Of a stretch of 64,000 bases of DNA, positions 31,948 through 59,183 are shown piece after piece. The translations under genes were made by a program, and so were the position numbers. The notes under the pieces are model-generated. The model saw only the letters and a program-made list of their open reading frames with translations, made no database searches and had not been told where the DNA came from. The first letter of the stretch is position 1; each line of letters begins with the position of its first letter. Source of the stretch: Bacteroidota bacterium (GTDB lineage Bacteria; Bacteroidota; Bacteroidia; Flavobacteriales; Flavobacteriaceae); assembly GCA_024279425.1 (NCBI GenBank), contig JAJRRO010000093.1, positions 1-64,000 on the forward strand, read 5' to 3'.

Positions 31948-32964
31948 TTATTCAGAGGGCGAAAACACATCCTGAAGCCACCCTCCTATAGAGTACTTAG
32001 AATAAACTGCTTTATCTATTTCTTTATATGGATTATCAAAAAAGGATTTTTTTAATTCAATATTGTCCCTGTCCAAGCAAAATATGTTGTTCGGATTATA
32101 GAAGTCATATTCCATAATTTCCTTATTAGTGGTAATTATCTTTTTCTTTGCACCAATCATCTCAATGGTCCTCATTGTCAATCCTTTCTGACCGGTATGT
32201 TGAATATCCAATATAACTTTGCCGCGATTAATCTTTTGTATCAACCCATCCTTCGTAAGAGATTTAAATTCAAAGTCAGATATTTTAGCAGTTCGAAACG
32301 CCTTATTTAAAGCCTTTTGTAGATAAAACAGTTTCTTGCTTTGAAAGAACATGAAATAATCTACGTTTTTGCCTAATTCATGGCATTTTTCTTTGATAGT
32401 CATAAGTAGGGAATATCGATCACTGTGCACTGTGCCCACAAAAAGCAAATCTACTATATCATTTTCTAAAGTTAAACCTATGTCTTTATAGACATCTAAA
32501 AAAAACAGAGGCCTGAAATGAAGCTCGTATTCCTCAATCTGGCTATCTTCTTTATCAAAAGTGTGCTTTAAATCGAAATAGGGAAGTAAATCCAAGGTGT
32601 ATTTTTTATTCTTTAAAGAATCCCACATATAAATTATGAACTTCGCCTTTGTTTGGTTATCCCTTAATATTTGTAAATTTTTGGCCGATATAGCCTCCGC
32701 ATTCAAAAACAAAACATAGTCATAACAATCAATATCCAATTTCGAAATAATTCTTCGGTAGTAATTATCGATTTTTTTTGACATTAATGACTTGTTCACT
32801 CGTATGACAGCTTTTGTCATAAAATCATTTCCGGGACGCTCATCAAAATAATCCACCCGCGCGCCAAGCATTCTAAGTTTATTGGCAATTTCCTGTCCGT
32901 ACCCAAAAAATTGTGGCGAAAAAAGAAGGATTCTCTTATGAGCAAAAAAATCGCTTAACATCAT
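31948..32964 (-). CDS. Putative glycosyltransferase (CgeB/GT-B-like)
   Basis: A 338-residue cytoplasmic protein. N-terminal Rossmann-like half (RILLFSPQFFGYGQEIANKL, DYVLFLNAEAIS) and C-terminal half with DLLFVGTVHSDRYSLL, LDIQHTGQKGLTMRTIEMIG and GAKKKIITTNKEIMEYDFY, a pattern of GT-B enzymes where a Glu/Thr-rich helix binds the nucleotide. It resembles capsule-locus glycosyltransferases of the CgeB type. It overlaps the AlgX-like gene by 4 nt (ATGA). Donor and acceptor unknown. Confidence 0.7.
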   Translation of the reverse strand: MMLSDFFAHKRILLFSPQFFGYGQEIANKLRMLGARVDYFDERPGNDFMTKAVIRVNKSLMSKKIDNYYRRIISKLDIDCYDYVLFLNAEAISAKNLQILRDNQTKAKFIIYMWDSLKNKKYTLDLLPYFDLKHTFDKEDSQIEEYELHFRPLFFLDVYKDIGLTLENDIVDLLFVGTVHSDRYSLLMTIKEKCHELGKNVDYFMFFQSKKLFYLQKALNKAFRTAKISDFEFKSLTKDGLIQKINRGKVILDIQHTGQKGLTMRTIEMIGAKKKIITTNKEIMEYDFYNPNNIFCLDRDNIELKKSFFDNPYKEIDKAVYSKYSIGGWLQDVFSPSE

Positions 32965-34691
32965 AATTTATTTATAGTATGTTTTTCGCCTAATTCCCGT
33001 TCAACAAAACCATCTATGATAACATCAGGTTGTACTTTTTTAACATAATATTCTTTGTGGCCCCATATATAGGTTACTTCATAGAAGTGTAGCGAGAAAA
33101 ATTGAATCAAACTATTCGTATACGAATCCCGAAAAACCAGTGCCTTCAACTTGTTGCCACAATGTTCATTCCGTGTTCTAACCGTGAGTTTTGGATATCC
33201 GTCAATGGGCAAATATTGAATTTGATCTTTGTTCTTTTTTAAAACAAATTTGGGTCTTTTTTCACTGAAAAAACCATCATTCCTAACCCCTAACATCGAT
33301 ATAAGATCACCCCCCCTGTAGTCTTCCCAAACAATATGAAAATCCTTTTCCTTTTTGGGGGCGATTCCTAGGTCTCCCTGAATTTCTTGGAAAAAAGTCC
33401 TATAAGCCAAAAAAGCCCCGTAATCATTCCAATGGGTGTCAAACTTATGATAAACTTGACTGGCCTTTTTGGCTTCCATTAAGTTTTGTCTTACGTCCAC
33501 AAGTTTAACACTCGTGTTATGCCTTTTCATATAGGTGTTGATTTGATCAACTCTTGATACGGTATCCTTAATTTGAATCTTCATGGTAGACGGTAAATAT
33601 TCAGGATAAATGGAATGTTTGTTAGGCCAAAAAGCTATAAAATACTTTCTCCCTTCCGCTTCAAATCTCGCTTTATTATCTTCCCATTGATCAACAATGC
33701 GTTTAAGCGTGTCCTGGGTAAGCAAATTTACCCTTCTATAGCTATCGTATATATGGCTGTTAAAATTATTGTAATACAGCCATTTCTGTTTTCCCAACAT
33801 GACTTGTTCAGGATGCATTGAAGACCTAAAGAATTTAGTTCGGTAGGTGCCTCCCCAATTGACAAAGATATTCCTGAGACCAAAATTATCATTGTAGTAA
33901 GACTCAAATCCTCTTGCAAACTCCTTAGTCCATGTGAATTCAGGCATTTTTACAAGCTCTCTTTTCTCAAGATTCTCCAATGGTTTGGCGAATTGAATCT
34001 GATTTTGAAGTGTTGGCATGATTAAAACTATCACAAAGACAGCAACAAAAATGCCTTCTTTTGAAATAGAAACCGAATTTACATTATACATCACAAATAA
34101 AAAGAGCACCAGACAAATAAAGGCCGCTATCAAATATGGATGTTTAGTAAGTCTATTCAACCTGATCGATTCCATTTCCCTTGAGCTATCAACAGAAATA
34201 AAATAGGGGTCGTATATAGTTTTTGATTTTAAAGCACCCGTCTTCCCGTTAAAACTATGATTATCGGTTGTTGCAATATATTTGTTTCCTGTGAATAAAC
34301 GATTAAACCCATTTATGCCGAATACAAGTTCGTCCGCTTCCTTAATGAATTTTATTTCCTTTATAATGACCGCATTCTGCTCAAAATTCTCTCCTATGTC
34401 TAATCGCAATCGAAATAAGTCTTTGATTCTTGGCAATTCAAATACAATCTCCTGGAAGTCTTCTGAGCCTTTGATTTTGGTTCGAACCGAATTTGCAATC
34501 TTAAATTTGGAAGCTGAGGTTTCCCAATAGAATAATTGAAAAACATCATCTTTCTGCACTTTGGCAGATAACACCACCGACATGTCGTCCAATGTAGTAT
34601 TCTCCGATTTCTTTAAATAGTTTGCTATCAAAAAAAAAGCGGCAATCCCCAGTAGGGCGAGTATATGTTCTTTTCTAATTTTGTTCAACAT
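32961..34691 (-). CDS. AlgX/AlgJ-like acetyltransferase with N-terminal sensor-like module
   Basis: A 576-residue membrane protein. TM at about 8-24, then an extracytoplasmic module (about 36-170), two TM (183-203 and 212-228), and a periplasmic SGNH/AlgX-like domain (about 240-576). Catalytic elements: FIAFWPNKHSIYPEYLP, D418 and H420 in KFDTHWNDYG, and S523 in FRDSYTN. Family members acetylate polysaccharides using acetyl groups passed by an MBOAT protein, here encoded 6 nt upstream. The N-terminal module resembles that of the O-antigen ligase-like protein at 42930-44660. Confidence 0.88.
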   Translation of the reverse strand: MLNKIRKEHILALLGIAAFFLIANYLKKSENTTLDDMSVVLSAKVQKDDVFQLFYWETSASKFKIANSVRTKIKGSEDFQEIVFELPRIKDLFRLRLDIGENFEQNAVIIKEIKFIKEADELVFGINGFNRLFTGNKYIATTDNHSFNGKTGALKSKTIYDPYFISVDSSREMESIRLNRLTKHPYLIAAFICLVLFLFVMYNVNSVSISKEGIFVAVFVIVLIMPTLQNQIQFAKPLENLEKRELVKMPEFTWTKEFARGFESYYNDNFGLRNIFVNWGGTYRTKFFRSSMHPEQVMLGKQKWLYYNNFNSHIYDSYRRVNLLTQDTLKRIVDQWEDNKARFEAEGRKYFIAFWPNKHSIYPEYLPSTMKIQIKDTVSRVDQINTYMKRHNTSVKLVDVRQNLMEAKKASQVYHKFDTHWNDYGAFLAYRTFFQEIQGDLGIAPKKEKDFHIVWEDYRGGDLISMLGVRNDGFFSEKRPKFVLKKNKDQIQYLPIDGYPKLTVRTRNEHCGNKLKALVFRDSYTNSLIQFFSLHFYEVTYIWGHKEYYVKKVQPDVIIDGFVERELGEKHTINKL

Positions 34692-34697
34692 AACGCT

Positions 34698-36116
34698 TTA
34701 AAATCTAAAGTAAATGAACGGATTGTAACTAGATTGAGCCAATTCAATGACAGACAATGTCAATAACACCGTGTAAAAGATATAAATTCCAATCTGGTAT
34801 CCAGTTTTTATCCACAATGAGCTCGTTTTTCTCAGGAACTCATTCGTCCAGTTACGCACAGGCATTGAAAAAATTATAGCCATTATAAGCACACAAATGA
34901 CATACGGATTTACATAAATCAACGCTGTAGTATCATTGCCTCCAGCAGCACCTATCATGTTTTTGAGATAAGCAAAGGCATCAGTCAAAGTTTCTGCCCT
35001 GAAAAACACCCAACCCACTACAACCACTATCAAAACATACACATGTTGAAGCGGCTTAGGCCATTTTTTAGTGTTTAATATCATGCTGCGCTCCAAGATA
35101 AGAAAGCTTCCGTGGAACAACCCCCAAAAGATAAAATTCCAGCTCGCCCCGTGCCATAGACCCGTAACAAAAAAGACAAGAATCAAATTGGCATAGGTTC
35201 TTCCCAAGCCTTTACGATTACCTCCCAAAGCAATATACAAATAGTCTCTAAACCAAGTAGATAGTGATATATGCCATCTTCTCCAAAAATCCTGAATTGA
35301 GTTGGAAATGTAGGGATAGTTGAAATTTTCCTTGAAATTGAAACCTAGCATTTTTCCCAATCCAATGGCCATATCGGAATAACCGGAAAAATCAAAGTAA
35401 ATCTGCATGGTATAGCACAAAACCCCCATCCAGGCGGTAGCCGTTGAAATTTCAGTGACTGTAACGGCAAATACTTGGTCGGCAATTAAGGCAGCGCTAT
35501 TGGCTATTATTATCTTTTTGGCCAGCCCACGGATAAACCGAATTACACCTTCGGTAAACAGGGGAAGATCTATAGAACGCTCCTTTATCTCTTGGGCAAT
35601 GTCATGATAACGAACAATAGGGCCGGCAATCAACTGTGGGAAAAAAGAAATATAGAGGCCTAAATGGAACAGATTACGTTGTTCTTTCGTTTCCTTACGG
35701 TACACGTCTACCAAATAAGAAATACCCTGAAATGTGAAAAAAGATATTCCAATAGGTAACAAAATGTTCTTATGATCATAGTCCAAGTAAAAACCAATTT
35801 CTTTGAGGGTCTCAACAATAAAATTGGCATACTTATAGTAAAATAGAAGACCGAGATTGACGGTTACGGCTAAGCCTAAAATTATTTTGGATAAGCTGTG
35901 TCCACGATTAAAAAAATAGGCGATCCCTAAACCGGATATATAGTTGACGCTTATGGAAAACAGCATAAGCAAAACAAGCATACCCTCTCCCCATGCATAA
36001 AACACCAAACTGGCAAGCAAAAGGAAGAAATTACGATACCGCTGTTTTAGTAAAAGGTTGAATATTAAAACGAAAGGCAAGAAAATAAATAGAAATACTG
36101 TTGAACTAAAAACCAT
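34698..36116 (-). CDS. MBOAT O-acyltransferase (AlgI-like)
   Basis: A 472-residue multi-pass protein (about 11 helices) that carries acyl groups, usually acetyl, across the inner membrane for polysaccharide O-acetylation. Hallmarks: LLPIGISFFTFQGISYLVDVYR, FFPQLIAGPIVRYHDI, DFWRRWHISLSTWFRDYLYI and the active-site His in FVTGLWHGASWNFIFWG. It pairs with the AlgX-like gene just downstream. Confidence 0.95.
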   Translation of the reverse strand: MVFSSTVFLFIFLPFVLIFNLLLKQRYRNFFLLLASLVFYAWGEGMLVLLMLFSISVNYISGLGIAYFFNRGHSLSKIILGLAVTVNLGLLFYYKYANFIVETLKEIGFYLDYDHKNILLPIGISFFTFQGISYLVDVYRKETKEQRNLFHLGLYISFFPQLIAGPIVRYHDIAQEIKERSIDLPLFTEGVIRFIRGLAKKIIIANSAALIADQVFAVTVTEISTATAWMGVLCYTMQIYFDFSGYSDMAIGLGKMLGFNFKENFNYPYISNSIQDFWRRWHISLSTWFRDYLYIALGGNRKGLGRTYANLILVFFVTGLWHGASWNFIFWGLFHGSFLILERSMILNTKKWPKPLQHVYVLIVVVVGWVFFRAETLTDAFAYLKNMIGAAGGNDTTALIYVNPYVICVLIMAIIFSMPVRNWTNEFLRKTSSLWIKTGYQIGIYIFYTVLLTLSVIELAQSSYNPFIYFRF

Positions 36117-37764: not shown

Positions 37765-38898
37765 CTACTTGTACATTCCTTTCTCTTTCATTTCGGCAAT
37801 TGACTTCTCATAATTGTCCTCTTTGATCTCTTGAGTATTGACCCAAGTCGCAAATCGCTTAATTCCCTCCTTAAAATCCATTTTAGGGATAAATCCCAAT
37901 TTTGATTTAACTTTCGTCAAATCGGCATAGTTATGGCGAATATCTCCCAATCTATAATTGCCAGTGATGCTTATAGGCGTGTCTATCCCATAATTCTGCA
38001 TCAAGGTACGGGCAACGGTTACCACATCGATAGCGACACCAGTTCCAACATTAAAAACCTCTCCGTTAGCCTCTTCGTTTTCCAGACCTAAAATCGTGGC
38101 ATCGACAACATCGTCTATAAAAACAAAATCACGGGTTTCCTTGCCATCTTCAAAAATATTTATTCCGTTGCCATTTTTAATCTGGGTAGAAAAAATAGAT
38201 AGGATTCCTGTATAGGGGTTGGATAATGATTGACCTGGGCCATATACATTCTGATAACGAAATGCTACAGGTGCAATCCCAACTGTGGGGCAAATCGTCA
38301 TAACCATTTGTTCTTGGTTTTGTTTAGTTATCCCATAAACAGACGATGGGTGTATTTTGGATTCTTCGTCGGTTGCCACTAACTCCAAATCAGAACTATT
38401 CGGGTATTTAACGTCAAAATCGTTTTGATCCATATCCGACCCCTTTCTGTGTTCCGGATATACTGGACCTAACTCCTGGCTCATATATTTTCCTTCACCA
38501 TAAATAGAACGGGAAGATGCTATTATGACTTTTTTGACATTATTAGGTTCATTTACCAATAAGTCTAACATCAAGGCAGTTCCTTGGATATTCACCGATG
38601 TATATTTATTTACTTCGTACATCGATTGGCCGGTTCCAGTTTCTGCGGCATAATGTACAATTGCGTCTTGACCTTTTATACTCTTTTCCCAGTCATCAAT
38701 ATTAGTTACATCGCCTTTAATAAAATTTACTTTATTTTTTATGGCATTAAATAATGGTGATGATTCCTCTGGGTCCTTCCCATGGATTTGTTCGGAGAGG
38801 TTGTCCAAGACAGTAACCTCATAACCTTTGGCAATGAGCTTTAGTGCTAAATTCGACCCTATAAATCCTGCACCACCGGTAATTAAAATGTGTTTCAT
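37765..38898 (-). CDS. NAD-dependent sugar epimerase/dehydratase
   Basis: A 377-residue extended SDR. GGAGFIGS nucleotide loop at residues 8-15, DNLSEQIHG, HYAAETGTGQSMYEVNKYTS, and the catalytic Tyr-Lys in SSVYGITKQNQEQ. The insertion region with YPEHRKGSDMDQ and the HYAAETGTGQ form recall dTDP-L-rhamnose 4-epimerases, which would make dTDP-6-deoxy-L-talose from the product of rfbBACD, though UDP-sugar epimerase is also possible. Start chosen at ATG 38898; an upstream start would add 14 unconserved residues. Confidence 0.85.
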   Translation of the reverse strand: MKHILITGGAGFIGSNLALKLIAKGYEVTVLDNLSEQIHGKDPEESSPLFNAIKNKVNFIKGDVTNIDDWEKSIKGQDAIVHYAAETGTGQSMYEVNKYTSVNIQGTALMLDLLVNEPNNVKKVIIASSRSIYGEGKYMSQELGPVYPEHRKGSDMDQNDFDVKYPNSSDLELVATDEESKIHPSSVYGITKQNQEQMVMTICPTVGIAPVAFRYQNVYGPGQSLSNPYTGILSIFSTQIKNGNGINIFEDGKETRDFVFIDDVVDATILGLENEEANGEVFNVGTGVAIDVVTVARTLMQNYGIDTPISITGNYRLGDIRHNYADLTKVKSKLGFIPKMDFKEGIKRFATWVNTQEIKEDNYEKSIAEMKEKGMYK

Positions 38899-39029
38899 TA
38901 AAAAATGGATTTTTGTTTGGAAATTTATACTTAAGCTCAAAAGTAGGGAATTTGCGTCTTTATTGACCTTCAGGTCTATATGATTATTTCACTGCAACAA
39001 TTGGATTAGTGAATTACCACCTTGTCCCA

Positions 39030-39062: not shown

Positions 39063-42041
39063 ATGTTGATAATCCAACTAATTATTCTAATTCTGATTTT
39101 ATCGATTATTAAGTCTTTTATCCCCGTTGGGAATAAGCTTTTTTTAATCGTTCTTTCCTTCTTTTTGGCACTTTTATTTACCATTCAATTAAGTTCCGCA
39201 GTAGTTACGGGAGAAATTGCAGATTATCGATTTTATGAGAATTTCGATATAAGCGATGTGATATCAGTTGCTGGGTTCTTCGGCAAGGAAGGGGTTGTTC
39301 TTACAATTGCCTTACTGGTGTCCATACTGCTTATCTATCGTGTAGGGCAAATTTTAAAGGCTAAGTTTAAAAGAAAATTTTGGCTGCTATTGTCTTTGTT
39401 GGTTGGAATTCTTGTTCTTAGCTCTTCTGGAGGAATACTTAATAACATCTACTATACCGTACAATTAAAATTTGCTGGGAATGCCTCCTTTAATGAGGCC
39501 CTCTCTTCATTACAAATTAATGAACAACAGTATGTTTATAAGGAAAACATTAATGCCTCAAAAGGAAAGAATATAATTGTATTATCCTTGGAGTCTTTGG
39601 AAAAGGGATATTTAGGAGATAAATTGAAGCACCTTACCCCCGAGCTTTCAAAGCTTGCAAAGGAGCATACATTTTATACCATGAAGCAATCTCCTGCAGG
39701 AGGGTGGACCTCCGCGTCAATGTATACTATGATAACGGGAGTACCTGCCTTTTTTAGCACACATGGCAACAGTGTTTTTCAGAACAGTTACCAAAACAAA
39801 CTTACCTCCTTGGCCGATGTGCTGAAGAGCGCAGGGTATGACCTTCAATACTTTATTGGTAAAAAGGAATACTCCGGAATTGATGACATGTTAAAAACAC
39901 ATGGTTTCACAGTCAAGTCGGAGAAAGATTTTGAAACAAAATATGCTGTTGTAGATTGGGGTATCCAGGATCAAGATCTATTTTCTGAATTAAAAAAAGA
40001 ACTCACTTTAAAAAAGAACACTAGGCAACCTTTTGCTCTTTTTATGTCAACTATCTCAACCCATTTTCCCAATGGAGTGCCTGATCCACGAATAAATAGT
40101 CTTTTGCCTCCTCAAAAAAGTAGATTGGAGCTCATGGTTTCAGCTACGGATTATTTTGTTGGAGATTTAGTCAAGTTCTTATCAGACCAGGGAATGCTCT
40201 CGAATACGGTCTTTTATATTTATCCAGACCATCTGCTAATGGGCAACAAATCAAGAGTTTTGGAAGATTTTGACGAACGATCACTGTTCCTACTAACCAA
40301 TGCGAATAATTCATCCATCGATTATATGATCGGAGAGGATATTTATCAAATAGATCTCCCTAAAATTATTCTTGAGGGAGCCGAAGTGATACACAATGCC
40401 AAGTTTTTAACCGATTTTATTCCAGATAAGGACAAGAATTTATTTTTACGTCAAAACGATAAAAATCTATTGCGTTTAAACGATGCCGCCTTAAAAACCT
40501 TGAACTGCAAAGAAGGTATCTATTTAGGGTTAAACGTGGACAAGGATTCGCTTGAAATTAAGAATGATGAAAATAGTCTAGTACTGAGTAGTATACTGCC
40601 GGATAAAGGATTTTGCCAACGAATCTTGTTCGATGAAAACCTAAGACCTTTCAAAGACTTTTCTATCGATATTTCGCAGGTATTAAAAGCACCACTAGCT
40701 TTTGCTTATTTGGATGTTTACTTTACTAATAATCAACTATATGGGACATTCAAAGGAAAATATCATTTTGGGATTACCAAAAACGGAAAACAGGAGGTTG
40801 TATTTGATTCCAATGATATTAGACTCCTTGAAAATATTGCACTAACTCAGGACAAAGAGGGGTCAATAACCCTTGAAAGTAATAGTTGGAACGCCAAAAA
40901 ACCCAGCAGGATTATTATTAAAGGCAAAGAAGTATCACCTTCACGGGGATTGACCATTATATGTTTTAATACTTCCTCGAAACAATATGAACTTAGAACT
41001 TTTGATACGTATGGTACTGAACAAGACTCTAATGAGTTTGTTGAAATTCTAAAAAATGTAATTAAGGATGGTGTGAAATTTATCATTCTTGCACACGATT
41101 CCGCCGCTAAAGGTTTATTGCCTTTTTCCGAGAAGTTAAGAGAGATGGGGTTAGATAAATTGAGTAAATTAAGGGATAGACAGGCCTATATTATGAATAA
41201 TCTTACGGAGAATAAAGTGGAAATAGTGGCTGATGCCTCTCTAAGAATAAATGTTCTTTTTCCAAATGAAATTCAAAATAGTAATCAATATTTTATTCAA
41301 GAAAAAGTAGAGTTCGAGTCCCGATCGGACCGTTATATAGCACATGCAGCAGGCATTATTGATGGAATAAAATACACCAACTCAAAGGAAGCCTTGGACC
41401 ATAGCTATGCACAGGGATTCCGGCTTTTTGAATTGGATATTATGGAAACCAAGGATAATTTCTACGTTGCTGGCCATGACTGGAACCATTGGGCAAAAGA
41501 AACTGGTTATAAGGGAATACTACCCGTTTCGAAAAATGAATTCCTGAAACATAAAATAAGAGGGCGTTTTTCTTTAATGGACATAGATGGTATCAACTCC
41601 TGGTTTGCAAATCATGGCGATGCAGTTTTAGTAACAGATAAAGTAAACGACCCGAAAAGGTTTGCTGCTCAATTCGTGGATAAAAAACGATTAATGATGG
41701 AGCTTTTTAGCCTCTCAGCAGTAGAGGCAGCTGCTTCAAACGAGGTAACTGTCTTACTGTCCGAAAAACCATTAAGTCAAATCAAAGGCGATTTAATTTC
41801 CTATCTAAAAAAGCATAAAATAAATCATGTAACCCTTTCTCGAAGGAGCATCAACAGTAGGAGAACATTGCTCAAAAAGTTAAGGGAACATAAGATTAAA
41901 GTATATGTATATCATGTCAACTTTGATCCTGGCAAAGACGAACAATACGTCTTGAATAATGAAATAGGATTGGTTTACGGTATGTATGCGGATAAATGGA
42001 TTCCTTCCTTTAAGCCTTCCAAGGAAACGGAAAACAAATGA
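39063..42041 (+). CDS. LtaS-like phosphoglycerol transferase fused to ILEI/FAM3-like and GDPD-like domains
   Basis: A 992-residue multidomain protein. Four to five N-terminal membrane helices (about 1-135). An LtaS/OpgB-type alkaline phosphatase fold domain (about 165-430) has E177 in VLSLES, the nucleophile-like T216 in GGWTSAS, and D389-H390 in YIYPDH. A linker (430-600) is followed by an ILEI/FAM3-like domain (about 620-712: RGLTIICFN...FDTYGTE...FIILAHDSA). A glycerophosphodiester phosphodiesterase-like domain (about 757-975) keeps H761 in IAHAAG, E790 and D792 in FELDI, and H805 in HDWNHW. Likely transfers phosphoglycerol to an envelope glycan. The GDPD part could remove or recycle it. 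The diacylglycerol kinase-like gene follows 14 nt later. Confidence 0.85.
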   Translation: MLIIQLIILILILSIIKSFIPVGNKLFLIVLSFFLALLFTIQLSSAVVTGEIADYRFYENFDISDVISVAGFFGKEGVVLTIALLVSILLIYRVGQILKAKFKRKFWLLLSLLVGILVLSSSGGILNNIYYTVQLKFAGNASFNEALSSLQINEQQYVYKENINASKGKNIIVLSLESLEKGYLGDKLKHLTPELSKLAKEHTFYTMKQSPAGGWTSASMYTMITGVPAFFSTHGNSVFQNSYQNKLTSLADVLKSAGYDLQYFIGKKEYSGIDDMLKTHGFTVKSEKDFETKYAVVDWGIQDQDLFSELKKELTLKKNTRQPFALFMSTISTHFPNGVPDPRINSLLPPQKSRLELMVSATDYFVGDLVKFLSDQGMLSNTVFYIYPDHLLMGNKSRVLEDFDERSLFLLTNANNSSIDYMIGEDIYQIDLPKIILEGAEVIHNAKFLTDFIPDKDKNLFLRQNDKNLLRLNDAALKTLNCKEGIYLGLNVDKDSLEIKNDENSLVLSSILPDKGFCQRILFDENLRPFKDFSIDISQVLKAPLAFAYLDVYFTNNQLYGTFKGKYHFGITKNGKQEVVFDSNDIRLLENIALTQDKEGSITLESNSWNAKKPSRIIIKGKEVSPSRGLTIICFNTSSKQYELRTFDTYGTEQDSNEFVEILKNVIKDGVKFIILAHDSAAKGLLPFSEKLREMGLDKLSKLRDRQAYIMNNLTENKVEIVADASLRINVLFPNEIQNSNQYFIQEKVEFESRSDRYIAHAAGIIDGIKYTNSKEALDHSYAQGFRLFELDIMETKDNFYVAGHDWNHWAKETGYKGILPVSKNEFLKHKIRGRFSLMDIDGINSWFANHGDAVLVTDKVNDPKRFAAQFVDKKRLMMELFSLSAVEAAASNEVTVLLSEKPLSQIKGDLISYLKKHKINHVTLSRRSINSRRTLLKKLREHKIKVYVYHVNFDPGKDEQYVLNNEIGLVYGMYADKWIPSFKPSKETENK

Positions 42042-42055
42042 AAAGATAATCGTCC

Positions 42056-42925
42056 TTGAGAAACCTCCATTTCATAATTAACCAACTTTCTCCCAATGCC
42101 ACTCGAGTGGAAAAAGAGGTTTTACGAAATTTTGATGTCAATGAATATGCCCTGACCATAAAAATATCTAAATACGAAGGACATACGGTTGAATTAACTA
42201 TGGCTTCTATTTCCGAAGGAGCATTGACCATAGTTGCTTGTGGAGGTGACGGTACCGTAAATGAGGTGGCTCAATGTTTGGTCAATACTCCTGTGTCTAT
42301 GGGAATCATCCCTATAGGATCTGGAAATGGTTTGGCAAGACACCTTTGTATTCCGACTAAGCTTGCCTCCGCCCTCGAAATCTTGAAAAAATTTGAAAGC
42401 GAAAAAATGGATGTAGGCCAGGTAAACAATCGTTATTTTTTTTGCAATATAAGTGTTGCCTTTTCGGCCCAGGTCATCCATTGTTATGACCAAATCCCTC
42501 AGAGAGGATTAAAAGCCTATTCAAAAGCATTTTTTAAGGCAATTTCAACATTTCAATATACAACGTTTCAATTCCAGGATAATGAGGTGCAATTGACGTC
42601 GACCCCTTTTATTTTATTGTTTTCCAATACAGACCAGTTGGGCTACAATAAAACCTTGACGCCGGATGCAAGCCTGTTCGATGGGAAATTGGACATGATT
42701 CGCGTGGAGAGGTCAAACCTCTTTCTACTCTCGTTCTTTATGCTTTTTGCCTTTTTTCGTAAGTTTCCGCCCTTCACAAATATACACAGGAAACAATTGG
42801 AGGTCATAAAAATTTCATGCCCCAATCAGCTCCTGAATATCCAAATAGATGGTGAAAGACTAGCTTGGAGGGCTACTGAACTGAACATCAAGGTGGTGCC
42901 AAAATCTTTGGAGATTATCTACTAA
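42056..42925 (+). CDS. Diacylglycerol/lipid kinase family protein (DgkB/YegS-like)
   Basis: A 289-residue kinase with the diacylglycerol-kinase catalytic fold: GGDGTVNEV at 63-71, GSGNGLARH at 88-96, and a C-terminal IQIDGERLAWR-like strand. It phosphorylates diacylglycerol or a related lipid. Start is TTG at 42056, since no ATG is near and the family N-terminus (NLHFIINQLSPNA) begins there. In Gram-positives DgkB returns the diacylglycerol released by LtaS to phospholipid synthesis. The same link is implied here by the gene pair. Confidence 0.88.
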   Translation: MRNLHFIINQLSPNATRVEKEVLRNFDVNEYALTIKISKYEGHTVELTMASISEGALTIVACGGDGTVNEVAQCLVNTPVSMGIIPIGSGNGLARHLCIPTKLASALEILKKFESEKMDVGQVNNRYFFCNISVAFSAQVIHCYDQIPQRGLKAYSKAFFKAISTFQYTTFQFQDNEVQLTSTPFILLFSNTDQLGYNKTLTPDASLFDGKLDMIRVERSNLFLLSFFMLFAFFRKFPPFTNIHRKQLEVIKISCPNQLLNIQIDGERLAWRATELNIKVVPKSLEIIY

Positions 42926-42929
42926 AATT

Positions 42930-44660
42930 CTAAATAGGGCTTTTAGAAGGTGTATAAAATATCGAAAGTAAGAATGCGATAACATATAATGAAGTTGTGG
43001 TCCGGAACGGTGACTCAATGGTCATTAATAGCAGTATCATAAAACTTACCAATAACATGGTCTTGTTTCCCTGTCTTATAAACTGATAGAACAAAAAAAG
43101 AAAGGTCGCAAGAAACAGTAGGGCGCCCAATAGACCATTTTCCAATAAATAGGTTAGGAATTGGTTATGGGAGTGGTTAACTTCCATAAACGCTTCTACT
43201 CCTCCCTTATTTATTGAAAGATGTTCTGGTAAAACAGTACTGGAAGTACCCGTGCCATGGCCCAACCAAATTTTATTTTTGAAAGCTGCCCATGTGACTT
43301 TCCACAACTGTTCTCGTTGGACATCCAGTGCCCCAATAAAATAAGCTATTATCGCAAAAATAGCGACCCAGGCTGGCACCAACCATCTGGAAAGGTTCCT
43401 TACTGATATGGCATATAAAAAAGGTAGCGAAATAACCAGCAACAAGGCAAAACGTGAACCAAGAAGCACCAATGTACAGAGGGTGAAAAGGGCATATATC
43501 AAGCCATATATCCTGGATATTTCCTTTTTACTATTAAGGTCCAAACAGAAAAGGGCACCAATGATGATAAAAAAGGAAAGAAAGGTGGTATGCGGATAGT
43601 ACAACCAGTACATAAGAGTGTGGGCGTGTGATTTAATATCGATAAAATAGTTGGCCCAACTAATCTTGTAAAAGTACCCATTATAAAACATCAACAATAG
43701 CCAATTGACCATAGAAATGGACATGATTACAAAAAATACGCCAACATATATTTTTTTAATCTGATTGACGCGATCCGAAAAATCTACCAGAGCTCCAATG
43801 AGGGCAAAGAGTACAAAGCCAAATGGAATAGTCAGCTCAGAGAGGTCCCCACCTCCTAAAAATAGCAAGGGCACTGCAAAAAACAACATTAAGGAAAAAT
43901 GAACAGGGCCTAATCGAACGCTTCGTTTTTTATAAAAATGAAAAAAAGCATAGGCAAGCAACAAGAGCGTTGTAAAAGTTACCCAAGCAATTTTCAGTGG
44001 AATGGCAGCAATAAATAATCCTATAAAAAATAATCCATATTGGCCTTCTTTTTTTAGTTTTCCTAACCATCGGAAAAGTGGAAGAATGAACAAAACCAAC
44101 CACGGACATATCAACAGTAAGATTCGCTGCCATTTGGGATACATCAACTCATTTATCGGGTCAAAAACAACATAGGGGTCGAATGGAACCACGTCCGTGT
44201 CCAAGGTAAAAGTCGCGGCAGTTTCATCTACCTTGGAGACGCTTGCCAAAAAACCCAATCTCTTCGCTATTTCTTCCTCTTCTAGCCGAAAAAGAATTTT
44301 ATCATTGTTGGATAACTGCACCGAATGGACCCTTACCTGCATCAAATTGTTATTAGATCCAAAATCCAATCGTAAATGTCTCAATTGCCCATCATCTTCT
44401 AATGAAAAAGTGAACAGCAGATTATTTTGACCTTTTTGGACTTTGGCCATTACTTTTTGCCCATTGTTAAAGTCATTCCCAGTATCATAAAGGAGCTGCA
44501 TACTGCCATCTGTTGCGTATAGAACACTAACCTCCAGATTGTAGTTTCCTTTGGAAAGACAGGATTTGAGATTATTATTGAAACTCATATTTAGAACAAG
44601 AGAAAGCACTAAGCATAGCCCAAGTCTCAATATAAATGATAAGTTTAGTGAACTATTCAT
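42930..44660 (-). CDS. O-antigen ligase/polymerase-like protein with N-terminal extracytoplasmic module
   Basis: A 576-residue membrane protein. TM about 8-26, an extracytoplasmic module (about 40-170), then about 11 membrane helices with the ligase/polymerase signature: ARG in LLGSRFALLL, the loop WLGHGTGTSSTVLPEHL, and EVNHSHNQFLTYLLENGLLG. WaaL/Wzy proteins join or polymerise lipid-linked glycans in the periplasm. The N-terminal module aligns by eye with the AlgX-like protein at 32961-34691. The start overlaps the upstream polymerase gene by 4 nt. Confidence 0.85.
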   Translation of the reverse strand: MNSSLNLSFILRLGLCLVLSLVLNMSFNNNLKSCLSKGNYNLEVSVLYATDGSMQLLYDTGNDFNNGQKVMAKVQKGQNNLLFTFSLEDDGQLRHLRLDFGSNNNLMQVRVHSVQLSNNDKILFRLEEEEIAKRLGFLASVSKVDETAATFTLDTDVVPFDPYVVFDPINELMYPKWQRILLLICPWLVLFILPLFRWLGKLKKEGQYGLFFIGLFIAAIPLKIAWVTFTTLLLLAYAFFHFYKKRSVRLGPVHFSLMLFFAVPLLFLGGGDLSELTIPFGFVLFALIGALVDFSDRVNQIKKIYVGVFFVIMSISMVNWLLLMFYNGYFYKISWANYFIDIKSHAHTLMYWLYYPHTTFLSFFIIIGALFCLDLNSKKEISRIYGLIYALFTLCTLVLLGSRFALLLVISLPFLYAISVRNLSRWLVPAWVAIFAIIAYFIGALDVQREQLWKVTWAAFKNKIWLGHGTGTSSTVLPEHLSINKGGVEAFMEVNHSHNQFLTYLLENGLLGALLFLATFLFLFYQFIRQGNKTMLLVSFMILLLMTIESPFRTTTSLYVIAFLLSIFYTPSKSPI

Positions 44661-47312: not shown

Positions 47313-48263
47313 TTAGTCAATCTGAACTGTTTTTTCAATACCAGCAACATAATTCCTCTTTATATGTAAATCTGTCATCCATTGTCGAACCTGTATGGTC
47401 TTATAGATGCCACTAGCCACACCTTTTCCCGGAGCTCGATTTTCCCATAACCACTCCGGTGTTGGCCATAGAGCATAATCGGCCTGTACCAATTCATAGA
47501 AGTTTTTATTAACCCCTTGCTGACCATGATGTGCCATTTGTACATCATCAGCCTTTAGCCTTTCCAAATTGCCCCTGCCAATTATTTTATCCCCTCCTTC
47601 AGGGCCCAAGTCTCCCAAGAACAATACTGACTTCGATTTACTTGAAACTTTAAACACAAGAGAAGAATTGTTTATGGCATTATTTACAATGGCGTCATTT
47701 CGACTACTTAATATGGTTATTTCAACACCCTCGCCCAATTCTAGAACATCACTTTCCACAGCATTTAGAAGTGAAATATTTGACTTCTTTAAAGTGTTGC
47801 TATAGCGTTTAAAATTTTCATAAGAATCAGGCTCATTTTTTAACACCCAACTATCATCCAAAGTTATTTGAAGTATTGTTCGAATATCAACGGAATTTTT
47901 ACTAACAATTTCCAATAATGCCCCCATATGGTCCAAATGGGGGTGAGTAATAATCCACATATCAACAACCCCACCCAATTGTTTCAAATAATTTTCTAGA
48001 ATAGGTGCAGTTCTTGTCCCTCCTCCATCAATAATTACGATTCTATTATCGTCAGTTTTAAGAATATAGCCCATTTGCACTGCATCAAAAAATTGATCCA
48101 ACTGCCATAACGAAAAGTCTTGTTGGCGATTAGGGAATGACCTTATATCCAATAGATCAGAATGATTATAAGAATCGCTACAAGAAAGTACAATTATTAG
48201 TATCCCAAATAAAAAGAAGGTCTTAATAAATTTAAGATTTTCATAAGGCAACAATCGCTTCAT
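47313..48263 (-). CDS. Metallo-beta-lactamase-fold lipoprotein
   Basis: A 316-residue protein. N-terminal leader with lipobox VLSC (Cys about 28), so envelope-anchored. The MBL domain runs from about 55 to 300: IVIIDGGGTR, the metal motif THPHLDH at 106-112, SVLFLGDLGPEGG, and VQMAHHGQQG. It resembles the C-terminal hydrolase part of ComEC, but here it is a free lipoprotein inside a phosphonate/TagF cluster. The pneumococcal phosphorylcholine esterase Pce also uses this fold, so a phosphodiesterase acting on glycan decorations is plausible (inference). The start overlaps the TagF-like gene by 23 nt. Confidence 0.8.
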   Translation of the reverse strand: MKRLLPYENLKFIKTFFLFGILIIVLSCSDSYNHSDLLDIRSFPNRQQDFSLWQLDQFFDAVQMGYILKTDDNRIVIIDGGGTRTAPILENYLKQLGGVVDMWIITHPHLDHMGALLEIVSKNSVDIRTILQITLDDSWVLKNEPDSYENFKRYSNTLKKSNISLLNAVESDVLELGEGVEITILSSRNDAIVNNAINNSSLVFKVSSKSKSVLFLGDLGPEGGDKIIGRGNLERLKADDVQMAHHGQQGVNKNFYELVQADYALWPTPEWLWENRAPGKGVASGIYKTIQVRQWMTDLHIKRNYVAGIEKTVQID

Positions 48264-49425
48264 AAACTCTTTTCGAATTTAGATTATCATGGAATTTATT
48301 AAAGAATTGGTTCTTCTCTTTTACAAGCCTAGCATATTCAGGTTTGTCCCAAATATATCTTAAAGCTTTGATAAGTTCATCCCATGTGAGCACAATAGGG
48401 CCTGAAACTGAATCATGATAATCAAAATACATTTCGCGGGAGGATGAAAGGTAGTCTTCTAAATCAAAAGCTGCAAATATTATTGGTTTCTCAGTAAGTA
48501 AAAAATCAAAATAGGCCCCTGAATAATCCGTTATTAACGCATCAGCGTCTTTGAGCATAAAATTAATATCGCTTACCTTTTTATCTGATAGGCTAATCAA
48601 TCTTCCATCTGAATTACCATTATCCGGATTAAGTTGATTATCTACATAATGCCCCTTACTTACAAAAACCATATTCTCTTTAATTAAAAAATCCTCTAGT
48701 TTACCTCTACTATAGTCTTGCAAAGTAAACAGGCTTTTTACACTATCGTGACTTCTAAATGTAGGTAGGTAATAAATAATTTTACAGTCTTTATAGCGTT
48801 TTCGAAGTTGCTCATTGAAACCATCCATTTCTTCGCTATAAAAAATGTCATTTCGAGGACAACCCGTTTCCATAATTCCAGATAAGGGAACCTTGAATGC
48901 TGATGACATTTTGTCCGAAAAAACGGCAGCATTTGATACTACAAAACGGTAGTTGAATTCACATATAAAAGGAAAAACAAAAGGCACCATTTTTCTCTGA
49001 AAAAAGGAGTTTATAGGCGAAAATTTGTCGTCCAACCCAATTTTTTTCATTGGATTACCATGCCATAACTGAATCCAATTTGCGCCATTAATGAACAAAT
49101 AATTGATGTCTCTTTTCCCAGAGCTAACAAGTACATTTTTTGCAAGTAAGCTATAATAAATTCCAGAAAAACTATTCGTTAAGTATGATACTCCCCCAGA
49201 TCTTTTAATCTCGTCCAAAAGGCCGTCATTCCTTGTCAGCCAAATGGCTTTTATATTCGGATGGTTTTTTACAACGTACAAATAAAGCGCCTTGCTATTA
49301 TCAGAATACCGTGTCCCATACCAAGCGCCAAATATCCATACATTTTTTTTTCTGGGAATCAGTTTTTGCAGTGCCCAAAACGGAAGAAATAAAATATATC
49401 CTAAATATTTAAAAAGACGAGCCAT
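48241..49425 (-). CDS. TagF-like CDP-glycerol glycerophosphotransferase family protein
   Basis: A 394-residue GT-B-like phosphotransferase. Basic/hydrophobic N-terminus for membrane association, then H122 in IQLWHGNPMKKIG, TGCPRND (187-193), YLPTFRSH and the nucleotide-binding ALITDYSGAYFDFLL near 296-310. Classical members polymerise glycerol-phosphate from CDP-glycerol. No CDP-glycerol synthesis gene is present, but a PEP mutase fused to a cytidylyltransferase lies three genes upstream. I infer a CMP-phosphonate donor. It overlaps the reductase gene by one base. Confidence 0.85.
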   Translation of the reverse strand: MARLFKYLGYILFLPFWALQKLIPRKKNVWIFGAWYGTRYSDNSKALYLYVVKNHPNIKAIWLTRNDGLLDEIKRSGGVSYLTNSFSGIYYSLLAKNVLVSSGKRDINYLFINGANWIQLWHGNPMKKIGLDDKFSPINSFFQRKMVPFVFPFICEFNYRFVVSNAAVFSDKMSSAFKVPLSGIMETGCPRNDIFYSEEMDGFNEQLRKRYKDCKIIYYLPTFRSHDSVKSLFTLQDYSRGKLEDFLIKENMVFVSKGHYVDNQLNPDNGNSDGRLISLSDKKVSDINFMLKDADALITDYSGAYFDFLLTEKPIIFAAFDLEDYLSSSREMYFDYHDSVSGPIVLTWDELIKALRYIWDKPEYARLVKEKNQFFNKFHDNLNSKRVYEAIVAL

Positions 49426-50561
49426 TAATCCTGCTTGCTTTTTAAAAGTGTTACAAGACCCTCCTTGGTGATTTTTCTAGGATTGTTTCCTAAACGTTCC
49501 ATGTTTACATTGTCTATAATTTTTTCCTTGTAATCAGAAATCCCCAATTTTTCCAATGATAGTTCTATCCCAATTTCTTTTGCATATTCCCTTAAAAATA
49601 TTTTACCCTCCAAAGCGCAGCTTACCCCTAAAAGTTTACAAAGCTCATGCATATTATCTCGCGTATAATCAACTCCTCTAGAATCATTCATGTCGTTTTC
49701 ATCAACTCCTTGATTATATTCAAAAAACTCAGGTAAAGTTAGAAATACTGCATGTCCGTGGGGAATGGAATAATAGGTTGTAAAAGCATAAGAAACCGCA
49801 TGAGCCGCTGTTGTTTTCGAAATATTTATTGCCTTGCCAGCCAAAAAAGCTCCTTTCATAACAGCTTTCCTGCTTTCTACATCTGCAGAATTCACGGCCT
49901 TTGATAAGTATTTCACTAGCAATTGAATAGCTTCCTTAGAATACTCTTTTGATTCACTAGTTGAACCAACACTCCAATATGATTCTATGGCTTGAGAAAA
50001 TGCATCAAGACCTGTAGTTGCTGTTAAATATTTGGGTTTGGTTATAGTGAATCGATAATTTAGCCCTGCAATATCCGGAAGTATCGATTCATGAGCGACA
50101 GAATACTTTTTCTTTTGATGGTATACTACCGCAAAATGTGTTGCTTCACTTCCAGTTCCTGAAGTTGTAGGGATCGCAATCATTGTTTTCCCCTTATTTT
50201 GAATTAATTTAGGGTTTTGAATGATGTCCAAACTATTTAGAAACGAATTGGCCGTAAACACATTGATCAATTTAGCCATATCAATTACACTGCCCCCACC
50301 AATGGCAATCATCAAATCACATTTTGCTTGTTCAAACAATTCGACTCCTTTGATGGCGTCCTCGTATTTTGGATTCTGCTCAAAATCATAAAACCTTACA
50401 TATTCAAGACCCTCCAAAGCCAATTCAATATATTCCTTAGCACCAGAATTTACGTAAGCCCCATCTTTAACGGTAACCAAAAAAACTCTTCTGCATTCAT
50501 GTTTACTAATCAAATCCTTGAGGTCAATACTTGAAATATCTTCTATAAATTCTTGGTTCAT
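49425..50561 (-). CDS. Iron-containing alcohol dehydrogenase, probable phosphonoacetaldehyde reductase
   Basis: A 378-residue group III alcohol dehydrogenase. GGGSVIDMAK (88-97) binds NAD(P), TTSGTGSEATHFA and the metal ligands in AAHAVSYAFTTYYSIPHGHA are intact. It directly follows, with 4-nt overlap, phosphonopyruvate decarboxylase, which yields phosphonoacetaldehyde. In phosphonate clusters this family (PhpC-like) reduces that aldehyde to 2-hydroxyethylphosphonate. No transaminase for 2-aminoethylphosphonate is present. Confidence 0.9.
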   Translation of the reverse strand: MNQEFIEDISSIDLKDLISKHECRRVFLVTVKDGAYVNSGAKEYIELALEGLEYVRFYDFEQNPKYEDAIKGVELFEQAKCDLMIAIGGGSVIDMAKLINVFTANSFLNSLDIIQNPKLIQNKGKTMIAIPTTSGTGSEATHFAVVYHQKKKYSVAHESILPDIAGLNYRFTITKPKYLTATTGLDAFSQAIESYWSVGSTSESKEYSKEAIQLLVKYLSKAVNSADVESRKAVMKGAFLAGKAINISKTTAAHAVSYAFTTYYSIPHGHAVFLTLPEFFEYNQGVDENDMNDSRGVDYTRDNMHELCKLLGVSCALEGKIFLREYAKEIGIELSLEKLGISDYKEKIIDNVNMERLGNNPRKITKEGLVTLLKSKQD

Positions 50562-51682
50562 TTAAGAAATTGTTGAAAAGCATTTTTATTTTCTTTTGGC
50601 GTTTTAGTAGGCCTTCCCAAATCCTCTCTAGCACCTTTGTTTACCTTCAGTTCTAGAAACGCCCTGCCCTTGTGTCCCTTAAGAACTTTTAACTTTTTCT
50701 TGATATCCTGAATCTCTGAAGCCGAATCTACAAGTGTATACCCAGAAGCCTTAGCTATTTCAGGAAAATCAATTTCAAAGCCGACTGTAGGCTGGCCTCC
50801 AACAGAATCATGGGCACCATTATTAATAACAATATGCTTAAAGTTATTCAAATCGCCCATTAATCCGTTGATAGCTAAACTTCCCATATGCATAATGACG
50901 GATCCATCACCATCAATGCAATATACGTTTCTGTTCTTTTTTTCTATAGCGACCCCCATAGCGATAGAAGAGGTATGACCCATTGCTCCCACCGTAAGAA
51001 AATCTTTTTCATGTGATTGACCCAGGGCAACTCTATACTCAAATACTTCTCTTGAGGTTTTTCCTGTTGTCGAAACCACTATATCTTTATCCTCTAGAAC
51101 ATCAATAACCAATTTTACCGCGCCCTCTCGGTCTAGAGGGAAAGAAGTGGGGATTTCTTTCTTTAATTTATACTTCTCAAAAGTACCTTTCCTAACCAGT
51201 AATGCATAAGGTTTTTTATTTGTCATTGCCTTTTCGACCGCTTTGTCCAAAACAATATCAATATTACTTGTGGCATCAATAATTTGGTAAGGTATTTGCA
51301 TTGCAGCTAATAGCTCTTCACTAACCTTTCCTTGTTTAACATGTTGTGGTTCGTCTTTTATTCCCGGTTCTCCTCGCCAACCTATTAAAAGCAGCATAGG
51401 AATCCCATAGACATCATTATCGGCTATCGAAAGTAAGGGGTTAACCGTATTTCCAAAACCTGAGTTCTGCATATAAACTAAAGGTAATTTACCGCTAGCA
51501 AGGTAGCTGCCAACGGCTAATCCTACTGATGCACCTTCATTGGCTGCAATAATATGGCGTGCATTTGGGGCATTGTCCGATATAAACGCACAAATATCTT
51601 TAAGTAACGAGTCTGGTACTCCCGTGAAAAAATCTATTCCCCTAGCTGTAAGAGCTTGATAAAATTTTAATGTATTGATCAC
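50558..51682 (-). CDS. aepY: Phosphonopyruvate decarboxylase
   Basis: A 374-residue thiamine diphosphate enzyme turning phosphonopyruvate into phosphonoacetaldehyde, the step that pulls the unfavourable mutase reaction forward. Visible: GIDFFTGVPDSLLKDI at the start, catalytic E49 in AANEGASVG, and the cofactor motif from GDGS (258-261) to NN (287-288), then GAHDSVGGQPT. It is 12 nt after the PEP mutase gene. Length is normal. Confidence 0.96.
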   Translation of the reverse strand: MINTLKFYQALTARGIDFFTGVPDSLLKDICAFISDNAPNARHIIAANEGASVGLAVGSYLASGKLPLVYMQNSGFGNTVNPLLSIADNDVYGIPMLLLIGWRGEPGIKDEPQHVKQGKVSEELLAAMQIPYQIIDATSNIDIVLDKAVEKAMTNKKPYALLVRKGTFEKYKLKKEIPTSFPLDREGAVKLVIDVLEDKDIVVSTTGKTSREVFEYRVALGQSHEKDFLTVGAMGHTSSIAMGVAIEKKNRNVYCIDGDGSVIMHMGSLAINGLMGDLNNFKHIVINNGAHDSVGGQPTVGFEIDFPEIAKASGYTLVDSASEIQDIKKKLKVLKGHKGRAFLELKVNKGAREDLGRPTKTPKENKNAFQQFLK

Positions 51683-51694
51683 TTTTGATAAATA

Positions 51695-59111: not shown

Positions 59112-59125
59112 ACAGAAAGTTCGTG

Positions 59126-59133
59126 CAAAATTA
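59126..59133 (-). promoter_or_regulatory. TAnnTTTG box for the DUF6909-wzz unit
   Basis: TAATTTTG on the minus strand, 15 nt before the ATG at 59111. It could be the main promoter of the downstream polysaccharide operon, because the gaps from here to rfbB are only 8 and 41 nt. Confidence 0.5.
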
Positions 59134-59183
59134 CGATTTAAATTGATGAATTATAATTCACAAAATCAAGTATTAACAGTAGT

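Follow-up and report, generated by a model that had tools for sequence, protein, structure and literature searches.

In the osmoregulated periplasmic glucans (OPG) of Escherichia coli and in Gram-positive walls, glycans are known to receive phosphoglycerol from phosphatidylglycerol. The E. coli transferase OpgB (MdoB) consumes phosphatidylglycerol, and dgk mutants become overloaded with diacylglycerol (DAG); a soluble form of OpgB shifts phosphoglycerol between glucans (PMC3818809). Here we describe a relative of OpgB in a 64,000-nucleotide stretch of the genome of a marine bacterium of the Flavobacteriaceae (the window; assembly GCA_024279425.1, contig JAJRRO010000093.1, positions 1 to 64,000). 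One open reading frame (ORF; 39063..42041, + strand, ATG start) encodes a membrane protein of 992 amino acids that, according to Pfam, NCBIfam and an AlphaFold2 model, joins an OpgB-type transferase, a beta-rich segment, an ILEI domain and a GDPD-type domain. A second ORF for a predicted lipid kinase follows 14 nt after the stop codon of this fusion gene. Each domain is of a known kind. In the open-access literature we found no paper describing a transferase-GDPD fusion and none on phosphoglycerol trimming in Gram-negative envelopes.

The reading we favor, tentatively and with slightly less than even confidence, is that of an inner-membrane phosphoglycerol transferase of the OpgB family to whose periplasmic portion a probable glycan-reading domain and a phosphodiesterase have been added. 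The sulfatase-fold domain would move phosphoglycerol from phosphatidylglycerol to a surface polysaccharide or a lipid-linked precursor, leaving DAG, which the neighboring kinase would convert to phosphatidic acid. The ILEI domain would bind glycan and the GDPD domain would cut glycerophosphodiester links of the same product class. A single polypeptide could thereby set, edit or turn over the phosphoglycerol load. In this scheme writing and DAG recycling are well-supported inferences and the eraser role is plausible, while the acceptor glycan, sugar binding by ILEI and the substrate of the GDPD domain are proposals.

Domain architecture of the fusion protein

The protein begins with membrane helices (residues 1-136, 39063..39470, +), which appear as hydropathy segments 1-52, 66-100 and 105-127 and as helices in the model. 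They precede a sulfatase-fold transferase domain of the OpgB/LtaS type (about residues 166-480, 39558..40502, +), recognized by Pfam Sulfatase (residues 169-394, E 1.3e-19), by its match to and alignment with E. coli OpgB, and by Foldseek. Two NCBIfam families match at E<=0.01, NF009027 and NF003000, both phosphoglycerol transferases of the OpgB kind, and NF009027 (phosphoglycerol transferase I) spans residues 2-400 with an E of 1.8e-28. The equivalog cut-offs of the OpgB models are missed (99.6 of 572 bits and 82.5 of 574 bits); judged by these matches, the transferase half is an OpgB relative and not the same enzyme. With E. coli OpgB it shares the membrane helices, a periplasmic sulfatase-fold domain and 29% identity over residues 170-415 (pairwise E 6e-19), whereas OpgB has 763 amino acids and aligns to the transferase part only.

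The window protein, E. coli OpgB and 14/14 aligned homologous transferase halves, one of which (L056) comes from a gene split over two ORFs, all have E177, T216, H334, D389 and H390. The E/T/D-H residues correspond to the catalytic residues of LtaS, and by the same analogy T216 is presumably the nucleophile. Significant phmmer matches are 3lxq and LtaP (LtaP E 2.1e-6), and LtaS is not among the 13 hits. Foldseek of the whole model against the PDB returned 3lxq, LtaP and LtaS as the best among the matches listed, and the best 50 of 1282 matches are all of the sulfatase/alkaline-phosphatase type. Although LtaS and LtaP share fold and catalytic residues with the domain, their sequence match is weaker, and the pocket segment of the window protein is OpgB-like when set against the LtaS pocket. 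By sequence, the nearest characterized transferase is OpgB rather than LtaS. An earlier sequence-only reading of this DNA had called the domain LtaS-like; the fold and the catalytic E/T/D-H residues hold, the label moves closer to OpgB, and the beta-rich segment is an addition to that reading.

Since NCBIfam, the OpgB alignment and residue identity make the transferase an OpgB relative, the donor is most likely phosphatidylglycerol and the product most likely DAG, both assigned by homology. The acceptor of OpgB, OPG, is not expected here because MdoG (PF04349) has no match in the genome of the window at E<=0.001, the E. coli positive control being matched; this candidate acceptor was therefore set aside as unlikely. 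It also seems improbable to us that the head group transferred is a different one, for instance phosphoethanolamine, and the locus unrelated to phosphoglycerol. The fold is common to the phosphoethanolamine transferase MCR-1 (rank 26 among the best 50 of 1282 Foldseek matches), the Trp/Arg of the LtaS glycerol pocket are not seen at the corresponding stretch, and the kinase would suit any head-group transfer that releases DAG. Nevertheless, NCBIfam at E<=0.01 yields phosphoglycerol transferase models only, OpgB, the one transferase compared pairwise here, matches well, and a GDPD domain suits glycerophosphodiesters.

The transferase domain is followed by the beta-rich segment (about residues 485-595, 40515..40847, +), delimited by the secondary structure of the model and by the BLAST ranges of five two-domain relatives (L089-L093), which lack it together with ILEI. 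Next comes an ILEI/FAM3-like domain (residues 600-735, 40860..41267, +), supported by Pfam, a PDB profile search and alignment. Pfam ILEI (PF15711) matches residues 628-711 with an E of 6e-7 and 30.3 bits, above the gathering cut-off of 27. Scanned alone, 23/27 homologous domains match it at E<=0.1. Among full-length homologues, the paralogue from the same genome (21.0) and L001 (20.6) score under the cut-off. A profile of the 27 domains finds FAM3B (E 2e-4), FAM3A, TMEM2 (a chain named cell surface hyaluronidase) and FAM3C in the PDB, and weakly POMGNT1 (E 1.2).

R628, D679 and R706 are invariant in 27/27 aligned ILEI domains. The POMGNT1 stem contacts sugar via R129, D179 and R207, and FAM3 relatives in animals bind sugars (PMC9802357). 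The spacing of these residues is 50 and 78 in the POMGNT1 stem and 51 and 78 here, a mapping that rests on spacing and on the FAM3B alignment. By this analogy the ILEI domain probably binds glycan. It shares the PF15711 match with FAM3B, FAM3C, the POMGNT1 stem and TMEM2; unlike them, it is bacterial and set between two enzyme domains.

The C-terminal domain (residues 746-985, 41298..42017, +) is of the GDPD phosphodiesterase type, as indicated by Pfam, a PDB profile search and conservation. Pfam GDPD (PF03009) matches residues 773-806 (E 2.1e-6, 28.4 bits, cut-off 23.6), covering profile positions 11-44 of 244. When the GDPD domains are scanned alone, 39/39 homologues match at E<=0.1; as a full-length protein, L002 scores 17.8, under the gathering cut-off of 23.6. 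H761, E790, D792, H805, D859 and E880 are invariant in all 39 aligned domains. A profile built from them matches 7ym0 (named lysoplasmalogenase, E 0.002), 2otd (a chain named glycerophosphodiester phosphodiesterase, E 0.0079), 2oog and other GDPD chains in the PDB, and hhalign against UgpQ gives a probability of 47 and an E of 1.9e-4. A phmmer search of the PDB with a single GDPD domain returned nothing convincing, the best hits being nanobody chains. The two conserved His, the E-x-D motif and the profile matches to solved chains are shared with the GDPD family members UgpQ, GlpQ, LyPls-PLD and LpgD.

The AlphaFold2 model of the whole protein (45 aligned rows) has a mean predicted local distance difference test (pLDDT) score of 85.3 and a predicted template modeling (pTM) score of 0.62. 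Its secondary structure, as we read it, runs from N-terminal helices through an alpha/beta transferase domain, the beta-rich stretch and ILEI to a barrel-like C-terminus, whose secondary structure would fit a TIM barrel carrying the conserved residues where its strands end. For ILEI and GDPD, support for the fold comes from hidden Markov model (HMM) and profile matches, model confidence and secondary structure, and the Foldseek list stands for the transferase fold. Overall, the proposed 992-residue ORF with membrane helices and sulfatase-type, ILEI and GDPD-type domains was borne out by Pfam, NCBIfam and the model. HMM and profile searches recovered both the ILEI and the GDPD family, and E177, T216, D389, H390, H761, E790, D792 and H805 lie where the sequence-only reading had put them and are invariant in the aligned homologues.

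Conservation of YGMYADKW and HDW was discounted as independent evidence because both peptides had served as search patterns for related loci. In eight GDPD rows from an independent genome search (L087-L094), H805 is kept and YGMYADKW varies (YGIYADDW and similar). One of these rows, L094:8997-9815, is a GDPD-only relative of 272 amino acids with an N-terminus that looks lipoprotein-like by eye and with neither ILEI nor transferase in the same ORF.

Fused and separate relatives in other genomes

A GDPD-part match occurs in 15/149 genomes of the family, a sample that overlaps our set of loci (G018 has the coordinates of the genome behind L008); eight of these matches are transferase and GDPD in one frame, three with ILEI and five without. 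Full-length or two-domain relatives also stand in records titled Flavobacteriales, Pontibacter, Sulfurospirillum and unclassified bacterium (L001-L004, L009, L058), a taxonomy in which metagenome-assembled records may be misbinned. In a Bathymodiolus symbiont (L056) the parts are split over two ORFs. Pelagihabitans pacificus carries a locus collinear with the window, in which the fusion is 66% identical and a standalone ILEI-GDPD gene lies about 16 kb away.

Such standalone genes were examined in 58 loci (the 64 loci L005-L068 minus L009, L056, L058, L060, L061 and L063, which are fusions, a split gene or fragments). All 58 proteins carry the ILEI domain, and 56/58 ORFs (400-520 aa) have an N-terminal hydrophobic stretch that fits a signal peptide or an anchor alike. 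An LtaS-like gene lies within 10 kb in 47/58 loci: in 42/49 of those with at least 8 kb downstream, and in five more among loci cut by contig ends. The cluster around these 47 comprises a YaiO-like barrel, an LtaS-like protein of about 790 amino acids, a GT2 glycosyltransferase, a HEAT-repeat protein and a response regulator. Among the neighbors discussed here and below, the names thrS-like, gltX-like and other housekeeping genes, HEAT, YaiO, response regulator, PAP2 and transposase were given by eye. The other 11/58 standalone genes have a DUF6909 gene on one side and a GH3-like gene on the other, in a position at the margin of the polysaccharide locus that the window also carries; each of these 11 genomes has that LtaS-like gene at another site (73-79% identity).

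The association recurs in the 149-genome sample. All seven genomes with a standalone gene hold the LtaS-like gene at no less than 69% identity, next door in 6/7, compared with 1/142 genomes without a standalone gene (a relative at E<=1e-30 is found in 26/142); kinship inflates these co-occurrence counts, as related genomes are not independent events. The genome of the window carries such a standalone ILEI-GDPD and LtaS-like pair as well (L074), besides its fusion. The surrounding stretch, L074:1-10395, contains a response regulator, a HEAT-repeat protein and a YaiO-like barrel, together with GT2 and LtaS-like/TPR proteins identified by Pfam, in a cluster convergent with the ILEI-GDPD gene. Its gene content suggests a system for making and exporting an exopolymer, equipped with a phosphoglycerol-type transferase of its own.

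We built a tree of 48 ILEI-GDPD parts, namely nine fused rows with ILEI, 11 standalone genes of the polysaccharide slot and 28 other standalone genes (27 of the 47 plus the paralogue from the genome of the window); fusions without ILEI were left out. A single branch sets all nine fused rows apart from the standalone ones (100/96); the tree has three long branches (L087, L004 and L088), and its root is assumed. The rows can therefore be explained by one event, a fusion or a fission. The fusion recurs among genomes, and ILEI-GDPD is repeatedly coupled to LtaS-like transferases; both are direct observations, as are the domain anatomy and the residue conservation described above. The pairing of transferase and ILEI-GDPD in relatives looks real. 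The strongest support for a GDPD domain acting on the writer's product is that ILEI-GDPD, as part of a fusion or as its own gene, stays with a transferase of this superfamily. Where it is a separate gene, its coupling across dozens of related genomes to a transferase of a similar kind indicates a defined partnership.

The kinase and the weighing of the proposed eraser role

The kinase ORF (42056..42925, +, TTG start) encodes a DgkB-like protein of 289 amino acids with GGDGT at residue 63, and the 14-nt spacing from the fusion gene given in the sequence-only reading was confirmed. Pfam finds DAGK_cat (4.3e-24) and YegS_C (2.8e-9), and the nearest solved chain is DgkB (2qv7, E 2.7e-21). These features are shared with the DgkB/YegS-type kinases, whereas the protein stays under curated NCBIfam cut-offs (TIGR00147, 110.5 of 118.65 bits; NF009874, diacylglycerol kinase, 95.2 of 385 bits) and its lipid specificity is a prediction. 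By homology it would phosphorylate DAG.

In the family sample, 22 other genomes contain a close kinase (E<1e-40), and an LtaS-like gene is its immediate neighbor in 17/22; among distant kinases of the same sample, 0/3 adjoin an LtaS-like gene. As this kinase clade adjoins LtaS-like genes in 17/22, the link holds at the level of a module, and the kinase/LtaS-like pairs predict a DAG-recycling module across the family. The genome of the window has a second such pair, an LtaS-like protein of 665 amino acids and a kinase, followed by a PAP2-like gene. Around this pair (assigned with Pfam), the stretch L075:810-9491 contains, as read by eye, a two-component pair, a TonB-dependent-receptor-like protein and the PAP2-like phosphatase, and is a candidate operon for DAG/phosphatidate recycling.

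Together with the kinship behind the co-occurrence counts, a number of results weigh against the reading we favor. Several concern the kinase, for which the sequence-only reading had made conserved pairing with the fusion a test of its interpretation. In the orthologous locus of Pelagihabitans pacificus the kinase is intact (76% identity, 13-nt gap from the fusion). A metagenome-assembled Maribacter genome has an intact fusion and next to it a decayed kinase (L140:13081-13802), spread over two frames and interrupted by a stop; this may be an ongoing loss or an error of assembly. L001 has a transposase-like ORF in place of the kinase. The kinase is thus decayed or missing in 2/4 orthologous loci, the window counted. 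It is beside 0/13 more distant relatives (L002-L004, L009, L056, L058, L087-L093) within the sequence around the gene, the contigs of L002, L003, L004 and L056 ending within 700 bases of it. Seven family genomes with distant fusions have no kinase match at E<=1e-20; the genomes of two distant fusions, L009 and L058, carry a kinase relative outside the stretch examined around the fusion. The losses at orthologous loci and the absence beside distant relatives led us to reject the kinase as a fixed partner. What remains of the earlier interpretation is its three domains with conserved catalytic residues and an OpgB-type transferase beside a DgkB-like kinase, in a Gram-negative polysaccharide locus.

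Further points concern distribution. ILEI was not found in seven fusions (L089-L093, L009 and L058). Several fusions sit among genes that read by eye as housekeeping genes and not in polysaccharide loci; the placement in a Gram-negative polysaccharide locus is true of the window and is not general. In a sample of the phylum, GDPD relatives were found in the genome of the window alone (1/395; positive control 10/10). In 9/11 genomes whose standalone gene occupies the polysaccharide slot, neither an OpgB-like nor a fusion match was found at E<=1e-5; a partner there, if any, is therefore encoded elsewhere. One could regard the fusion as a passenger of gene shuffling, its domains joined by chance and its GDPD part without catalytic relevance, and the kinase losses and the seven fusions without detected ILEI would fit. 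We consider this highly improbable, as the fusion persists across distant genera with invariant catalytic positions and the separate ILEI-GDPD and LtaS-like genes stay coupled.

The remaining points concern the chemistry of the GDPD domain, whose motifs set the window protein and its relatives apart from the GDPD family, as does its joining to a transferase or ILEI. The HRG motif reads HA(A/G)G, the Arg after the first His being replaced by Ala, or by Gly in one sequence. Placed by eye, VTDK stands where UgpQ has IEIK with the third metal ligand Glu; neither D859 nor E880 varies. In the alignment to 7ym0, which covers profile positions 14-73 of 240, the 7ym0 chain has HAGGE at the HRG place of GDPD enzymes, and in its HAGG motif the domain here resembles this lysophospholipid-type enzyme. 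We take 7ym0 to be the LyPls-PLD of the study cited next; if so, it is active despite HAGGE, and a lost Arg therefore need not mean a dead site. LyPls-PLD is described in PMC5095149 as an active enzyme that keeps the GDPD catalytic residues and has no activity on glycerophosphocholine. According to PMC7086022, GlpQ is specific for sn-glycerol-3-phosphate and degrades such wall teichoic acid, not intact phosphatidylglycerol-derived lipoteichoic acid. By this precedent, stereochemistry is the strongest objection to the GDPD domain acting on the writer's product.

These motifs bear on two alternatives. In the first, which we hold to be unlikely, the GDPD domain would act on lipids as a phospholipase D, removing lysophospholipid or other by-products of lipid nature where the transferase works in the membrane and leaving the glycan untouched. 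It would agree with 7ym0 as the best PDB profile match, with its HAGGE and its name, with the retained residues of LyPls-PLD and its inactivity on glycerophosphocholine, and with a membrane-anchored GDPD protein of S. aureus that is a lysophosphatidylglycerol phospholipase D (PMC10404611). The 7ym0 match is weak, however, both in E value and in coverage, and ILEI, sugar-binding in animals, is present in all 58 standalone proteins (the GDPD-only relative L094 being without it). Moreover, 11/58 standalone genes lie at a polysaccharide locus, and the hydrophobic stretch near the N-terminus of 56/58 does not distinguish a signal peptide from an anchor.

In the second alternative the GDPD domain would be a further transferase or a recycling enzyme, passing phosphoglycerol between acceptors or forming cyclic phosphates instead of erasing. 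The transfer among glucans by soluble OpgB (PMC3818809), the cyclic intermediate of a GDPD-family enzyme (PMC10404611) and motifs that depart from canonical hydrolases all lend it something. Soluble OpgB, though, transfers with its own catalytic domain, not with a GDPD domain. To our knowledge there is no GDPD-fold phosphoglycerol transferase, and we regard this alternative as quite unlikely.

The writer and eraser reading can also be stated in a stronger form: a writer-reader-eraser polypeptide for phosphoglycerol on a Gram-negative surface glycan whose GDPD domain, with HAGG and TDK, cuts the phosphatidylglycerol-derived sn-glycerol-1-phosphate links that GlpQ rejects, and a separate eraser that in part of the Flavobacteriaceae serves a second LtaS-like exopolymer system and, in trans, an O-antigen-type locus. 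We think this form doubtful. A GDPD part that did cut sn-glycerol-1-phosphate links would represent a counterpart to GlpQ.

Other genes of the polysaccharide locus

The fusion and kinase genes are flanked by two genes on the opposite strand, both named from Pfam and both present as neighbors in L001, L139 and L140. On one side lies an NAD-dependent sugar epimerase/dehydratase (37765..38940, -) and on the other a Wzy_C-type O-antigen polymerase/ligase-like protein (42930..44660, -). Further upstream, at 32961-36116, a DltB-like MBOAT acyltransferase (TIGR04091, 164 of 375 bits) stands beside an AlgX-like SGNH protein; judging from their similarities, these genes probably O-acylate the same polysaccharide.

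A metallo-beta-lactamase-fold protein with weak ComEC-like similarity (47313-48263) has counterparts of 52-55% identity in both collinear relatives. A phosphonate cassette (48241-52993) has a cytidylyltransferase-phosphoenolpyruvate mutase fusion (TIGR02320, above cut-off), a phosphonopyruvate decarboxylase (TIGR03297, above cut-off), an iron-dependent alcohol dehydrogenase and a TarF-like transferase. The cassette resembles the Fom1-type route to cytidine monophosphate-hydroxyethylphosphonate, as outlined in PMC6697681. We considered the phosphonate genes as a necessary link to the fusion and rejected this, since they are absent from the collinear locus of Pelagihabitans, where both fusion and kinase are present; for the same reason the cassette is a variable decoration.

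At the edge of the polysaccharide locus, the gap of 72 bases from the DUF6909 gene to the GH3-like gene (59112..59183, no strand) is empty in the window and holds the standalone ILEI-GDPD gene in 11 related loci, as seen by locus comparison. The GH3-family protein on its far side (59184-60686) resembles the lyso-ornithine lipid synthetase OlsH (392 of 620 bits), and in those 11 relatives the GH3-family gene flanks the standalone ILEI-GDPD gene.

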